Virus record (IMG/VR): IMGVR_UViG_3300021197_000088
Coordinates: 1-54,442 of that record
Source: a virus
DNA: 54,442 bases
Reading direction: 5' to 3' (one strand)
Part shown: positions 40,613 through 54,442 of the stretch, piece by piece
Position numbering within the stretch: position 1 is the first letter of the stretch
How the letters are laid out: every line of letters begins with the position of its first letter
Notes under the pieces: model-generated
Database searches by the model: none
What the model was told of the DNA's origin: nothing
What the model saw: the letters and a program-made list of their open reading frames with translations, nothing else
Position numbers and translations under genes: made by a program

Positions 40613-40835
40613 TGACTGCATCCCTTAATGTTTTAATACTACGCAACACCGCAATTGCTCCCTGCGCACGGTGCATTAATACTGTACTATCGCCTTGTTC
40701 TAAAGTACGATGTTGTTGTTCGATAAGCATATCTAAATACTTACTGAAGTGGCCCCATTGGCGGCTGTTGCTGACCAGCGGCTTGAGTTTGCTGAGTATT
40801 TCCTTGTTGTCCACTTGCACTAAATCCTTGTTCAC
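40605..40835 (-). CDS. Small helical protein overlapping the portal gene (76 aa)
   Basis: The frame begins with a GTG at 40835 inside the portal gene and overlaps it by 95 nt. The conserved-looking pattern NSRQWGHFSKYLDMLIEQQHRTLEQGDSTV followed by RAQGAIAVLRSI resembles small podoviral proteins encoded right after the portal. A shorter form from ATG 40730 is possible but would lose the Trp motif. Function unknown. Confidence 0.6.
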   Translation of the reverse strand: MNKDLVQVDNKEILSKLKPLVSNSRQWGHFSKYLDMLIEQQHRTLEQGDSTVLMHRAQGAIAVLRSIKTLRDAVNG

Positions 40836-42876
40836 CCGGAACAGGAACTTGTCCTGTACCTATATTTCCACCACCTGCACCTGTTGGGTCCATTGGATTA
40901 GCACCCGGTGGTGCTTGTCCCTGCTCCGGCATTGGAGCTTGGAAGCCCTTCATAATTTCTGCTTGCAGTGCAGCTTCATCCATATTGTTGGTAACTTTGT
41001 CTGGGTCTAAGTCCATAGACTTTGCAATCTCTCGTATTACATATTGGAACTTAGCAAAAGGAGCGAGTGCAGGGTTACTCGCAATTTGTAGGAACTGCAT
41101 GAGTCTTTGGCTGCGCACTTCGTTTGCCATAAGACTTTCAGTACCACGAGCTTTAACTTCTAAGTCCCCTTTTATTTCAGGGTCAAAGTCAAACTGCATG
41201 TTAAATCTAAATAGTCCCTCCCCTAAAGGACGAAGAAGATAGTCATCCACATTTTTAATAACTGTTTTTGTACCACCTTGAGCCGCACCCATCAACATAG
41301 AAATACCAGAGGCAGTACGACCTACTCCTGTAACTCCTGTTTGTCCATGTGCAAAAGATGGAAAGCCTGTACTTTCATCTGCTAATACACGAGCTTTATC
41401 AAACAGCATCATATTCTCTTGTGCTACATTTGGAAACTTTGTACCAAACAATGCCTGTCCCGGTGCGCCACCTTGTCTACGAAATATCTTACCCGGATAT
41501 ATAGACAGGTCTTGACCCGGCACTAGGTTTGTTTCATCTACCTCTACAATTAAATTGCCTGACAATACTGCATTGTCTACAGCCATACGCATAAAGCCAT
41601 TCATTAATGTCTGCGTATCATCCATGTTTTCAGCAATACCAATACCAAAGAAAGAGTATGGGTTTAGTTCGTAAGGAGAAGCACAGTAAGGTATCTTAGA
41701 AGGTTTAAATGGATTAAGAACCATGCGAAGCAACTTACCACCACAAATCCAAACATTGGCTTGCAACTCATCAAACTCTTTTAATTCTTTTGGAATCTTT
41801 ACGTCGTGTTCTTCAAGTAACTCTACATCTACCATTCCCCAATATTCTAATACTTCAAAACGGTCAATGCCATGTTCGGGTGCGTAGTCAGTTAAATCTT
41901 CTTCCCAGTATTTTTTAGTATAGTTTTCGCCTGTAGCAATAACTTCATCAATAACACCACTTCTAAAATAAGGACGCTTTTTAAGATTACGCAATTGTGT
42001 ACGTGACATTTTGTGTCTCTCAATTACGTACTGTGCTTCGTCCATATTATTGGCATCTGGGTCTGGATAAAAGTTCCAAACAGAAACATGGTTTACCTGT
42101 GGTATTGTTTTAAACATTGGGTCATATTCACCATCATCACTCCAATTAGGATATTCTTTGTCAACGGCAAATGGGCCTTTCATAATACCTGTACCAAATA
42201 AAGCCATTTCAAAAGCTGCGCTACGTAGATGTTTAGTTGCGCCAGACTCTTCTAGTTGGTCATGTATTTTCTTTTGCATTTTCTTTGCAGCAATTAAAGC
42301 AGGACTAAATGCAATAGCCGTAGGTGTTTGACCCGGACCTTCTTTTAATTTATCTTGTATTGGCTCAAGTTTATTTTCCAATACCCCAAGTTTTTCTTGG
42401 AGACTTTGGGCTGTGGCACCCGCAGGGAAATCCATTCCATCTCCCGAAAAACCATAGGGACTAGAAAGTGCAGTCTCACTACGCAATTGTTCCGGTTCTT
42501 TAGGGTCAAAATGTACATCTGCTACAACCCCCTCTGGTAATTCTGTTGGTTCAATAGATAAAGGAAAACGCTGATTAGCAAATAAGACATCAACAATTTG
42601 TCCATATGCTGCCAGCGTTTTTGTTTTTGTTACTTTAATAAATACACGAGACTTTTCAGATTCGGTAAACTGCACATCAGGACCATACAAACCACGATAA
42701 TTCCTATACGCACGAAGCCAACGCTCTTCATCGTGGTATCTGTAATCTTCTGATTTTTTATATCTTTCAGTAATAAAGGGAATAATATTACTTACATCAA
42801 TATCTGTTTTAGCTGTATCATCTGTATCTTCCAGAGCGATAGCGTCATCTTCAATCATAATTTCATCTTCAGCCAT
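40741..42876 (-). CDS. Portal protein
   Basis: I chose the ATG at 42876 (MAEDEIMIED), overlapping the previous stop (TAATG) and preceded by AAGGAAG. The 711-residue product has the podoviral portal pattern: YRYHDEERWLRAYRNYRGLYG near the N-terminus, FKTIPQVNHVSVWNFYPDPDA near residue 260, GIGIAENMDDTQTLMNGFMRMAVDNA, and PSFAHGQTGVTGVGRTASGISMLM. It forms the dodecameric DNA gate and motor docking site. The C-terminus is Gln/Gly/Pro-rich. Confidence 0.88.
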   Translation of the reverse strand: MAEDEIMIEDDAIALEDTDDTAKTDIDVSNIIPFITERYKKSEDYRYHDEERWLRAYRNYRGLYGPDVQFTESEKSRVFIKVTKTKTLAAYGQIVDVLFANQRFPLSIEPTELPEGVVADVHFDPKEPEQLRSETALSSPYGFSGDGMDFPAGATAQSLQEKLGVLENKLEPIQDKLKEGPGQTPTAIAFSPALIAAKKMQKKIHDQLEESGATKHLRSAAFEMALFGTGIMKGPFAVDKEYPNWSDDGEYDPMFKTIPQVNHVSVWNFYPDPDANNMDEAQYVIERHKMSRTQLRNLKKRPYFRSGVIDEVIATGENYTKKYWEEDLTDYAPEHGIDRFEVLEYWGMVDVELLEEHDVKIPKELKEFDELQANVWICGGKLLRMVLNPFKPSKIPYCASPYELNPYSFFGIGIAENMDDTQTLMNGFMRMAVDNAVLSGNLIVEVDETNLVPGQDLSIYPGKIFRRQGGAPGQALFGTKFPNVAQENMMLFDKARVLADESTGFPSFAHGQTGVTGVGRTASGISMLMGAAQGGTKTVIKNVDDYLLRPLGEGLFRFNMQFDFDPEIKGDLEVKARGTESLMANEVRSQRLMQFLQIASNPALAPFAKFQYVIREIAKSMDLDPDKVTNNMDEAALQAEIMKGFQAPMPEQGQAPPGANPMDPTGAGGGNIGTGQVPVPGEQGFSASGQQGNTQQTQAAGQQQPPMGPLQ

Positions 42877-43064
42877 TATACTTCCTTTGCTCCTACGATA
42901 GTGCATTTATAATCTACGGACTTCCAATGCCCGTCTTTAGGAATCTCTTCGTGTATTTGTTTCATTTCTATACATTGCGGTTGTTGTTCAAACCACTGTA
43001 TTGTCTGTGTTCCACAAGAACTTGTATCACACACAGTTAATAATAAAGTCCAAATTACTTCCAT
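42876..43064 (-). CDS. Small exported two-cysteine protein A (62 aa)
   Basis: The start at 43064 (MEVIWTLLLTVCDTSS) overlaps the terminase stop. A short hydrophobic N-terminus looks like a signal or anchor sequence, followed by QCIEMKQIHEEIPKDG and KSVDYKCTIVG. It is one of four small proteins in this strand with the same layout (hydrophobic start, mid-protein Cys in a helix, late Cys in a strand), which suggests a periplasmic disulfide-bonded fold. Confidence 0.55.
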   Translation of the reverse strand: MEVIWTLLLTVCDTSSCGTQTIQWFEQQPQCIEMKQIHEEIPKDGHWKSVDYKCTIVGAKEV

Positions 43065-52462: not shown

Positions 52463-52501
52463 GTTATACATAATTATATCAGATTATGTCAAGCCTGTCA
52501 A
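52463..52501 (-). promoter_or_regulatory. Tandem overlapping promoters of the virion operon
   Basis: On the minus strand a perfect consensus TTGACA (52501-52496) N17 TATAAT (52478-52473) overlaps a second TTGACA (52492-52487) N18 TATAAC (52468-52463). Both drive leftward transcription into the minus-strand genes. Operator palindromes follow immediately. These should be the strong promoters of the late unit. Confidence 0.85.
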
Positions 52502-52573: not shown

Positions 52574-52728
52574 CAGTTGTTCTTGTGGTTAACACTTAAT
52601 TTTCCTAATCTGTGTATTTCTACATACACATATACGTACACCCCCACTCTGCCCCCTGCCTACCCTCCTTACTGCGCCTGTATGTGCCGCATTATGCAGC
52701 CGCATAGCGCATGGTAAGAGCCAAACTT

Positions 52729-52999
52729 AGTCCAACATCGGACTTAAAGCATTGAAAATGCTATATGTTATCCCAAACAACCAGTTGTAAACAACTGTTA
52801 TGGTATCAGTTGCCATACGAAGTATGCTTTTTGAACAACAGAACTACAGATTTGTATCGAAGATACAATGTTGATGCATCTATTTCTGTATAGCTTGCTA
52901 TACAATGTTTCTGCTACACCATACCCCACCAACCAAGCGGTCATCCTCGCATCCGCACAGTTCAGTGCAGGTATTTCGGAATAACTTGTTATTCCTGCA
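52729..52999. other. Array of small hairpins in the non-coding control region
   Basis: The region holds consecutive perfect inverted repeats: AGTCC-N6-GGACT (52729-52744); AGCATT-GAA-AATGCT (52748-52762); CAGTTG-TAAA-CAACTG (52782-52797); CATAC-GAA-GTATG (52814-52826); TTGTATC-GAA-GATACAA (52852-52868); TGTATAG-CTTG-CTATACA (52887-52904); GGAATAA-CTTG-TTATTCC (52978-52995). Three have the GAA triloop, and two of those close with the C-G pair of the exceptionally stable DNA mini-hairpins. No convincing gene covers this stretch. It may be a structured leader RNA of the early transcript or a replication origin. Confidence 0.7.
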
Positions 53000-53068
53000 A
53001 TCACATGGAACGGCATGGGCAGAGGATGGCGTGTAAGGCTTCAACCAAAACCTTAACTATCTTCTTAC

Positions 53069-53125
53069 GGTTTTACGGGATATAGCCCCTTGAACGTAGT
53101 GAAAGGGGTATATCCCTATAAAACC
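53069..53125 (+). other. Long hairpin upstream of the first early gene
   Basis: Three successive perfect arms, GGTTTTA/TAAAACC, GGGATATA/TATATCCC and CCCCTT/AAGGGG, stack with small bulges to about 21 bp around the loop GAACGTAGTGA. The loop and closing bases (CTTGAAxxTAGTGAAAG) are shared with the hairpin at 54246-54281. The structure ends 24 nt before the ATG at 53150. Confidence 0.7.
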
Positions 53126-53149
53126 TAAAGATAGATAAGAGGAACCGAA

Positions 53150-53749
53150 ATGCAAAATTCAACTTCAAAATCACTGACTGTTGTAAACAACACTTTGGAA
53201 GCTGAAGGCTTTGCCTTGGCTAAAGAGTTCAAGCAAATCACCAAAGGTGATAAGGCTCGTTTCACCAAAGCAACTAAGGCTGATGGCTTTGATACACGGC
53301 TTGGAAAGCTGATGCAAAAGCTGAAGGCTGAAGGTGGCGAACGGATTTCATCCGATAGGCTGAAGGATTGCGGCATCAATGTAATTGATAAGCGGCGCAG
53401 AGCAGAGGCTTTGTGGTTCGTTGAAAACGAAAAGGCTTGCCGTGAGTTTATTGCTAAAAGCAAAAAAGGTTTTACCAGTCTCACAGCTTTACAAGCTGCA
53501 ATGAAGCCAAAGGCTCCGTCAAAGCCAAAGGCTGAGACACCTGTTGAGCCAAAGGCTAAAGCACAGCCTCAAGAACAGCCAAAGGCTGAAACACAGTCTG
53601 TAAAGACTGCTGAAGATTTGGCACTTGACACTCTACTGCAAGTAGAGTTACATGGTATCAGCCTTGCTGATTTCAAGATTGCTATGGCAAATGCCATTGG
53701 CTTAATTGAGCAGAACAACGAAGTTGTCCCATTTGATATGGTAGGTTAA
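53150..53749 (+). CDS. Early protein with KPKAE linker (199 aa)
   Basis: The start follows AAGAGGAACCGAA. Residues 1-115 are helical and basic with RISSDRLKDCGINVIDKRRR, which may form a helical DNA-binding domain. Residues 118-150 are a KPKAE/PKAQ linker, and the C-terminal 45 residues are an acidic helix pair (LALDTLLQVELHGISLADF). No family is recognised. It is the first early gene after the control region and is a candidate regulator. Confidence 0.7.
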   Translation: MQNSTSKSLTVVNNTLEAEGFALAKEFKQITKGDKARFTKATKADGFDTRLGKLMQKLKAEGGERISSDRLKDCGINVIDKRRRAEALWFVENEKACREFIAKSKKGFTSLTALQAAMKPKAPSKPKAETPVEPKAKAQPQEQPKAETQSVKTAEDLALDTLLQVELHGISLADFKIAMANAIGLIEQNNEVVPFDMVG

Positions 53750-53756
53750 CACCTAC
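53741..53756 (+). other. Short hairpin at the stop of the first early gene
   Basis: GTAGGT-TAAC-ACCTAC is a 6-bp stem with a 4-nt loop containing the TAA stop. No T-tract follows, so terminator function is doubtful. Confidence 0.35.
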
Positions 53757-53769
53757 TATATCATTCCCT

Positions 53770-53802
53770 AGTCCAACCTTGGACTTAACAATACGGAGTA
53801 TT
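53770..53802 (+). promoter_or_regulatory. Start-associated double hairpin with Shine-Dalgarno in the loop (copy 1)
   Basis: AGTCCAA-CC-TTGGACT (53770-53785) is followed by AATAC-GGA-GTATT (53790-53802), whose triloop plus the next G is the GGAG that serves the ATG at 53806. The same two-part module precedes the gene at 54336. It may display or sequester the ribosome binding site. Confidence 0.72.
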
Positions 53803-53805
53803 GAA

Positions 53806-54003
53806 ATGAAATTTGAAATGTTAGATTTATTTTTGATTGCCATGTTAATGGTAGGCGTTTTCTTCGGATTAGCTATGCTATCCGTTCATGGTGTAGGTTA
53901 CATGACATGGCTGTCATGGACGCTATTCGGTAGCAGCGCATGGTGCCTAGTCGTTGGCTGGGTAATTGTAGCATACAATTTGGAGAATCGTAATGGCTCG
54001 TAA
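53806..54003 (+). CDS. Early two-span membrane protein (65 aa)
   Basis: The ATG at 53806 is set by the GGAG in the preceding hairpin loop; an upstream in-frame TTG (53779) lies in the hairpins. Two hydrophobic segments (about residues 6-25 and 36-57) are separated by HGVGYMTWLSW. The C-terminus is charged (NLENRNGS). Early membrane proteins often interfere with host functions; the role here is unknown. Confidence 0.62.
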   Translation: MKFEMLDLFLIAMLMVGVFFGLAMLSVHGVGYMTWLSWTLFGSSAWCLVVGWVIVAYNLENRNGS

Positions 54004-54235
54004 ATTCATCACACCGATGGGCAGGCATAAGCCTGTCCGTTCAAGCTGGCAGGCAATGGACACACAAGCCTATAGCCGTAGCTATGAGCCTGAGACACGG
54101 CCTGAGTTCCGTTGCTATGTGACTGGTCAAGCTGAAGCTGCACAGCAAGCGTATGAAGCGAAGCTGAAGCGTGAGGCACAAGTTCAAGCCTTGCTTGAGT
54201 TGAAGCAGAGGATGCTTGACAAGAATTTGCTTTAG
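53993..54235 (+). CDS. Early basic protein (80 aa)
   Basis: The gene overlaps the previous one by 11 nt. The product has a basic N-terminus (MARKFITPMGRHKPVRSSW) and a long C-terminal helix (EAAQQAYEAKLKREAQVQALLELKQRMLDKNL). No family is recognised. The promoter at 54216-54245 overlaps its end. Confidence 0.62.
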   Translation: MARKFITPMGRHKPVRSSWQAMDTQAYSRSYEPETRPEFRCYVTGQAEAAQQAYEAKLKREAQVQALLELKQRMLDKNLL

Positions 54236-54245
54236 TGTGTATAAC
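54216..54245 (+). promoter_or_regulatory. Sigma70-like promoter for the last early gene
   Basis: TTGACA (54216-54221) and TATAAC (54240-54245) are 18 bp apart. The hairpin at 54246 begins at the expected transcription start (about 54252). It probably drives the gene at 54336 and, in a circular or concatemeric genome, the genes at position 1 onward. Confidence 0.65.
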
Positions 54246-54281
54246 GTAAATACACTTGAAACATAGTGAAAGTGTATTTAC
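54246..54281 (+). other. Perfect 12-bp inverted repeat at the promoter start site
   Basis: GTAAATACACTT and AAGTGTATTTAC enclose the loop GAAACATAGTGA. The arms contain the ACACTT and AAGTGT half-sites of the operators at 52318-52456. The loop shares CTTGAA-N2/3-TAGTGAAAG with the hairpin at 53069-53125. It could act as an operator at DNA level or as an RNA hairpin. Confidence 0.7.
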
Positions 54282-54300
54282 TTATATCCACTACTAACCT

Positions 54301-54333
54301 AGTCCAATGTTGGACTTAACCAAACGGAGTTTG
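54301..54333 (+). promoter_or_regulatory. Start-associated double hairpin with Shine-Dalgarno in the loop (copy 2)
   Basis: AGTCCAA-TG-TTGGACT (54301-54316) then CAAAC-GGA-GTTTG (54321-54333); GGAG at 54326-54329 serves the ATG at 54336. The stems differ in sequence from copy 1 but the loop, the spacing and the first hairpin are conserved. Confidence 0.72.
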
Positions 54334-54335
54334 AG

Positions 54336-54442
54336 ATGAACACAGAAACTGATTACAAGAATGAGTTGGTGCAAATCCTGTGGGACTTGTTCAAGGATGT
54401 ACATGGTGTACGTCCCCGTGGCATGGGCTATGAGAAGTATTC
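54336..54442 (+). CDS. Early protein, 3' end cut by the window
   Basis: At least 35 residues are visible (MNTETDYKNELVQILWDLFK..., then GVRPRGMGYEKY). The start is well supported by the SD-displaying hairpin. The frame runs off the window. Joining the end directly to position 1 would put it in a frame with a stop within about 14 codons, not in the frame of the first gene. No family is recognised. Confidence 0.7.
   Translation, partial: MNTETDYKNELVQILWDLFKDVHGVRPRGMGYEKY

Follow-up and report, generated by a model that had tools for sequence, protein, structure and literature searches.

The window analysed here, the 54,442-base IMG/VR virus record IMGVR_UViG_3300021197_000088, is assigned to the HMO-2011-type marine podoviruses. 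Hairpins that hold the Shine-Dalgarno (SD) sequence at gene starts, a palindrome restricted to phages bearing the gene gp74, and a zone dense in short hairpins together point to an undescribed gene-control system in its putative early genes. The closest named phages are HMO-2011 (SAR116 host), whose terminase is 88% identical to that of the window, and CRP-1 and CRP-345 (Rhodobacteraceae hosts). HMO-2011-type phages are one of the most abundant groups of marine viruses (PMC9038755); a search of their main comparative paper turned up nothing on promoters, hairpins or early-gene control, other papers on the group having been covered in part. A sequence-only reading of the window had proposed a single two-part module, in which a hairpin AGTCCAA-N2-TTGGACT is followed by a triloop hairpin displaying the SD, repeated before the start codons at 53806 and 54336. 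The sequences and coordinates of both modules, and of a third copy of the first hairpin, proved exact when re-read from the window, and the covariation and start placement that it saw stand, whereas the unity of the module does not.

The start hairpins lie on the plus strand, CAATAC-GGA-GTATTG at 53789-53803 (GGAG at 53795-53798, ATG at 53806) and CAAAC-GGA-GTTTG at 54321-54333 (GGAG at 54326-54329, ATG at 54336). Only C-GGA-G is constant across relatives: the stem differs yet stays complementary, with 15 different complementary 5-bp stems in total (AATAC, CAAAC, TCAAC, TTAAC, AAAAC, ATAAC, ATTAC, GTTAC, TTTAC, TTATC, TAATC, AAATC, CTATC and others), so that the covariation suspected within one genome is real among relatives. 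In 30 distinct SD sites that were not selected for a stem, 114 cells at stem positions 2-6 form Watson-Crick pairs, while the highest of 5000 shuffles gave 84, and ten non-SD C-GGA-G sites of the same zone show no pairing excess. The stem is likewise tied to the start codon, as 45 of 87 C-GGA-G sites with a following ATG have a stem of at least 4 bp, compared with 3 of 71 without one. We also collected loci by the gp74 protein alone, leaving the motif unused (220 relatives, 80 kept, 55 distinct), and there 55 of 66 C-GGA-G SD sites carry such a stem. An alignment of 28 module sequences gives the same picture, with 99.4% of cells paired versus 84.7% in shuffles and no more than about 40% once the pairing partner is displaced by one to three columns; because it was built from sites with visible stems, the shuffle test on the 30 unselected sites is the stronger one. 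The module was expected before orthologous starts of relatives and is present there, including in HMO-2011, which has AGTCCGACAGCGGACT..AATACGGAGTATT..ATG and, with an inverted copy of the first element, AGTCCGCTGTCGGACT..CAAACGGAGTTTG..ATG. A covariance model made from the 28 copies matches gp74-bearing relatives and none (0/8) of the cultivated HMO-2011-type isolates without detectable gp74, namely CRP-2, CRP-603, CRP-207, CRP-9, CRP-13, CRP-212, CRP-3 and HTVC033P.

The first half of the proposed module is a different matter. Its sequence had been given correctly, but a loop of 2 nt cannot sterically close a 7-bp stem, and the element must therefore either fold as 6 bp with a 4-nt loop or be a DNA palindrome. 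We describe it as a 14-bp palindrome with the core GTCCRNNNNYGGAC, spanning 14-16 bp with a 4-6 nt centre across copies. The window, whose ends are probably incomplete, shows three exact copies of AGTCCN6GGACT, every one on the plus strand between 52.7 and 54.3 kb: AGTCCAACATCGGACT at 52729-52744 in the non-coding leader, AGTCCAACCTTGGACT (core GTCCAACCTTGGAC) at 53770-53785 before the first SD triloop, and AGTCCAATGTTGGACT at 54301-54316 before the second. The copy at 52729 had been noted as preceding a GAA triloop, and indeed AGCATT-GAA-AATGCT follows directly at 52748-52762. Across the gp74 loci the broader form GTCCN6GGAC has 230 distinct copies and occurs in 55 of 55. An SD and ATG lie within 60 nt of 99 of the copies; the other 131 have none at that distance. 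The leader position is shared by relatives (38 copies in the bin from -500 to -250 before gp74), and 44 of 60 orthologues carry the palindrome inside gp74 itself, as a hairpin at its linker column. The SD triloop also occurs without the palindrome. With the palindrome mostly away from starts and the triloop able to stand alone, the two halves are separate things, and the SD triloop is one class of a much larger set of coding-strand mini-hairpins.

The distribution of the palindrome follows that of gp74. Whole records of gp74-bearing phages hold 5-6 copies of GTCCRNNNNYGGAC (12 of 12), mostly within a few kilobases, and those of the eight gp74-lacking isolates hold zero (8 of 8). In CRP-1 and CRP-345 its core reads GTCC..GGAC. 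An exact IMG/VR scan for the two-part pattern returned 54 stretches, mostly HMO-2011-type, the remainder being chance matches in other contexts. The fifth base of the palindrome is identical within a genome in 53 of 60 genomes despite many A/G switches on the gp74 tree, as would be expected for the sites of a trans-acting factor, or from gene conversion. Its centre is oriented with transcription (AATGTT 83 versus AACATT 16; GATGTC 33 versus GACATC 3). Judged by this distribution, the role that suits the palindrome best is that of a site recognised by a trans-acting factor, for which gp74 would be the first candidate.

Both elements sit in a zone packed with hairpins. Counting perfect hairpins with a stem of 6 or more and a loop of 3-6, the window between 52 and 54 kb contains 21 where 2.5 are expected, the rest of the genome being mostly near expectation, and the matching 2 kb of HMO-2011 contains 21 against 2.0. 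The 55 gp74 loci together hold 1910 hairpins, as opposed to 372 in block shuffles, with an excess in every locus. Density stays near 1x left of -1000, reaches 9x at -500 and 14x at the gp74 start, and drops to 2-3x by +2.5 kb along the rightward operon. No such general excess was found in the first 8 kb of the eight gp74-lacking isolates. The class takes in GAA, AAA and GTA loops, none of them SD sites: in early regions 61% of C-GAA-G sites (57/93), 74% of C-GGA-G and 29% of C-AAA-G lie in stems of at least 4 bp, compared with about 3% of such sites elsewhere (4/148 for C-GAA-G). Loops are biased to the mRNA-sense strand, with 121 GNA versus 31 TNC, and 320 versus 116 in the gp74-chosen loci. 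The excess extends into coding sequence, the gp74 gene itself (199 aa, 53150-53749, plus strand) holding 14 hairpins in the window and 17 in HMO-2011, where synonymous-codon shuffles give means of 1.9 and 1.8 and a maximum of 6. When 60 gp74 genes are aligned, hairpins fall repeatedly in the same columns, on complementary stems that differ between genes (sum of squares 11015 versus a maximum of 3569 with shifted rows), a recurrence to which shared descent contributes.

Several members of this string can be placed on the plus strand. The leader mini-hairpins of 52748-52868 include three GAA triloops, at 52748-52762, 52814-52826 and 52852-52868. Further along, GGAATAA-cttg-TTATTCC at 52978-52995 is replaced in relatives, between conserved flanks, by GTAATC-gta-GATTAC, GTAATC-tac-GATTAC or GGAAAC-gta-GTTTCC. 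A long imperfect stem-loop occupies 53057-53134 in the gp74 5' leader, directly before the gp74 SD; its consensus fold has 30 pairs, 5 of which are changed on both sides (TTTTA/TAAAA versus TTAGT/ACTAA). At the other end of the gene, GTAGGT-TAAC-ACCTAC at 53741-53756 places the gp74 stop codon TAA within its loop; the stop codon is looped in 37 of 53 loci, on many different stems, the stem reaches 4 bp or more in 21 of the 22 orthologues listed, and the boundary fold around it covaries with double changes. Ahead of the second module lies AAATACACTT-gaaacatagtga-AAGTGTATTT (54248-54279), with similar hairpins in HMO-2011. A second hairpin type, with CTTGAA..TAGTGAAAG at its apex, can be seen at 53092-53110 in the gp74 leader and at 54255-54274 before the second module, and also in HMO-2011. 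An Rfam scan returned no family at its gathering score, its single match falling far below threshold, and a tRNA search found none.

How might these pieces work together? We consider that the rightward early operon of gp74-bearing HMO-2011-type phages is, in its 5' part, a string of short hairpins that would carry two superimposed signals. The first would be punctuation: cistron boundaries have the start signal placed in a loop, as the gp74 stop codon usually is too. In C-GGA-G the GGA would be unpaired, while the fourth G of GGAG would belong to the closing pair; the stem below is weak and AU-rich, and its sequence is free to vary. Such a hairpin may display the SD and protect it from pairing with other parts of a transcript full of hairpins. 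The 30S subunit could open it, or a factor might keep it shut or cleave it, in which case early cistrons might be switched together. The second signal would be the dispersed palindrome GTCCRNNNNYGGAC, at which a trans-acting factor, most probably gp74, would bind. The centring of both start and stop signals in loops suits translation and not action as DNA, and our preference, a moderately confident one, is for action at the mRNA level. Translational control through mRNA structure is the reading that fits best, and a plausible one. The joint proposal, string, punctuation and palindrome together, is offered more tentatively, as a serious possibility that falls a little short of probable. What the analysis demonstrates is the hairpins themselves, their covariation, their position on start and stop signals, their confinement to the gp74 region and the joint occurrence of palindrome and gp74, whereas RNA as the target, translational control and gp74 as binder are inferred.

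The predicted layout of gp74 would fit the part of binder, with a helical N-terminal domain bearing a basic helix-turn-helix (HTH)-like stretch (RISSDRLKDCGIN-VIDKRRRAEAL), a disordered linker and a helical C-terminus that could serve in dimerisation. Among cultivated isolates gp74 was detected in HMO-2011, CRP-1 and CRP-345 only, and a search of 84,980 species genomes gave no host or prophage copy. Three independent origins of the gp74 variant KQRR were each accompanied by GTCCG sites, although with only three switches the link is not significant (sign test p = 0.25).

Several observations weigh against this account. Searches of gp74 by Pfam, PHROG and PDB sequence and by fold recovered only its HMO-2011 orthologue and no solved-fold counterpart. 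Its link with the palindrome is a correlation only, and the presence-absence counts take no account of relatedness. The stems at the SD have little stability (-0.7 to -2.2 kcal/mol), which fits a display or a switch better than a block. Every change in the module alignment is double, with zero one-sided (G-U) intermediates in 308 cells; this is unusual for RNA covariation and calls for caution over a simple RNA-only reading. Strand-specific folding energy does not discriminate, the RNA z-scores being -1.85 for the minus strand and -1.59 for the plus strand. Finally, hairpin loops are inverted at fixed sites (gta/tac, GACAGC/GCTGTC). Inverted loops and palindrome centres were seen at orthologous or sister sites (loci L012 and L070 versus HMO-2011; L001:60 versus L002:9808), and suggest inversion through DNA hairpin or cruciform events. 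Two further comparisons had little to work on: informative cells were few in the RNA-versus-DNA wobble test, and the left side had few hairpins in the loop-orientation flip test at the leftward promoter.

Among the alternatives, the one that survives best concerns the palindrome only and is compatible with any reading of the triloops: independently of the hairpins, it could serve a phage repressor, whether gp74 or some other protein, as a conventional DNA operator or stoperator, and binding at the 5-6 sites would shut down the early operon. Integrases are present in several of these phages, the site is a near-perfect 14-bp dyad, dispersed, also intragenic and mostly in the early region, sites are homogeneous within each genome, and the HTH-like basic stretch and possible C-terminal dimerisation of gp74 would suit a repressor. 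A symmetric operator would have no need of a centre that follows transcription, although a history of copying could cause the asymmetry, and the SD triloops go unexplained; we regard this as possible but somewhat unlikely. The stoperators of cluster A mycobacteriophages, for comparison, are asymmetric sites read by a monomeric repressor (PMC9283540). In both cases one short site has many genomic copies, bound by one phage protein in the stoperators, whereas the present sites are palindromic and mostly confined to the early region, with gp74 as candidate binder. As in dispersed-operator systems, several copies of one site, also within genes, co-occur with a private phage protein.

A bolder version of the hairpin account holds that the early operon is a deliberate string of coding-strand mini-hairpins, whose loops show start and stop signals and are read or protected by gp74, which would also read the palindrome. 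We think this rather unlikely; if true, it would amount to a structure-based early-gene code without a described counterpart.

It is less likely still, in our view, that the hairpins act as DNA, C-GNA-G mini-hairpins forming in single-stranded or supercoiled phage DNA with possible roles in replication start, priming or first-entry transcription, and the overlap with start signals being secondary. C-GNA-G is the very loop that drives extrusion of the N4 promoter hairpins when DNA is supercoiled (PMC4496689), the class holds GAA, AAA and GTA loops outside SD sites, and loop inversions and absent G-U intermediates suggest DNA-level processes. Yet action as DNA leaves the tie between C-GGA-G and start codons and the looped gp74 stop codon unexplained, and the dense zone tracks the rightward transcription unit. 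The likeness to the N4 virion RNA polymerase promoter is close, with a short variable stem, a G-purine-A triloop and a C-G closing pair in each. An N4-type promoter is nevertheless ruled out by strand and by the -8 base, for that promoter is a template-strand hairpin requiring -8G and +1C (PMC4496689), whereas in the present hairpins the coding strand carries the loop, with GGAG at SD distance from the ATG, and the base beside the closing C, at -8, is A or T wherever an SD site has a stem of 4 bp or more. As for a virion RNA polymerase, open reading frames (ORFs) of 1188 and 851 aa have no Pfam or PHROG match, no search aimed at such a polymerase having been made.

Mutation without selection might also build hairpins, and we give it the same small chance: fold-back template switching near an origin or exposed single strand would copy one arm onto the other, with little function. 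This would explain arms that are perfectly Watson-Crick without wobble, whole stems replaced between conserved flanks, inverted loops, a bias to the loops most stable in DNA, and a density that decays gradually with distance. It does not account for C-GGA-G sites in the same zone that are not SDs and lack stems, nor for start and stop signals placed in loops, and the gp74-gene hairpins hold fixed positions in relatives with alternative stems, though shared descent contributes to this.

Two protein-centred explanations of the SD triloops fare far worse. That they are cleavage sites of a RegB-like RNase inactivating early mRNAs is highly improbable: PF10715 had no match in 10 of these genomes at E up to 10, the 3' consensus GGAGRAYARAA is not found at the window sites, and the non-SD GAA and AAA hairpins would be unexplained. 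The classic CsrA target, a GGA looped out over the SD, is just what the SD triloops present, but a loop class reaching GAA and AAA and the frequent UC-GGA-GA variants make it even less credible that a CsrA-like repressor of translation, from host or phage, acts at them.

The system closest in arrangement is that of the cluster K mycobacteriophages, where start-associated sequences (SAS), a fixed 13-mer GGGATAGGAGCCC with a ribosome-binding motif, lie just before the starts of non-structural genes, accompanied by ESAS, paired imperfect 17-bp inverted repeats with a variable spacer, the function of both being unexplained (PMC3203893). The sequence-only reading had drawn this parallel in concept and not in sequence, rightly so: in both, a ribosome-binding element stands directly at non-structural-gene starts, often with an inverted repeat upstream, and the repeat is specific to a subgroup of phages. 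Unlike in SAS, C-GGA-G alone is fixed here and the stem is variable, and neither window module (CAATACGGAGTATTG, CAAACGGAGTTTG) matches the SAS consensus GGGATAGGAGCCC within two mismatches. In place of a 17-bp repeat there is a compact palindrome of 14-16 bp with a 4-6 nt centre, also intragenic, and a hairpin-dense zone and a private gene accompany the element. The control of early mRNA in T4, by RegB and structured starts (PMC3014915), offers a second parallel, as it too concerns early phage genes with GGAG SD sequences, and C-GGA-G hairpins would, in their predicted structure, have the geometry of RegB targets (GGA unpaired, fourth G constrained). It differs in that no RegB homologue was found here, and that stems are conserved by covariation at many sites. 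The phages studied here provide a second, independent case, beside SAS/ESAS, of a start-adjacent element accompanied by an inverted repeat upstream, with far more natural covariation to use. As testable handles they offer gp74 as a named protein, a palindromic site of defined length (14 bp), and start hairpins in which pairing can be abolished and then rebuilt.

The modules sit where the rightward operon begins, opposite a leftward operon. Behind the first module is an ORF of 65 aa (53806-54003, plus strand) of no known family, followed by one of 80 aa (53993-54235, plus strand) that is kept in relatives; the ORF starting behind the second module (54336-54442, plus strand) is truncated by the window end. 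As its reading frame is not resumed at base 1, the record is probably no complete circle, and part of the early operon is missing. On the minus strand, 52473-52501 is a perfect sigma-70 consensus promoter (TTGACA, 17, TATAAT, extended TG) for the leftward operon, and many relatives have sigma-70 consensus matches at a comparable distance from gp74. The non-coding stretch 52584-52665, 81% identical with CRP-1, could be a rightward promoter or an origin. Another repeated start motif, GGAGATTGATGATG and variants, occurs at 1400-2060 ahead of several small ORFs, with no hairpin. Further away, the minus strand at 40741-42906 encodes an SU10-family portal protein (PF23899), here in a 54-kb podovirus.
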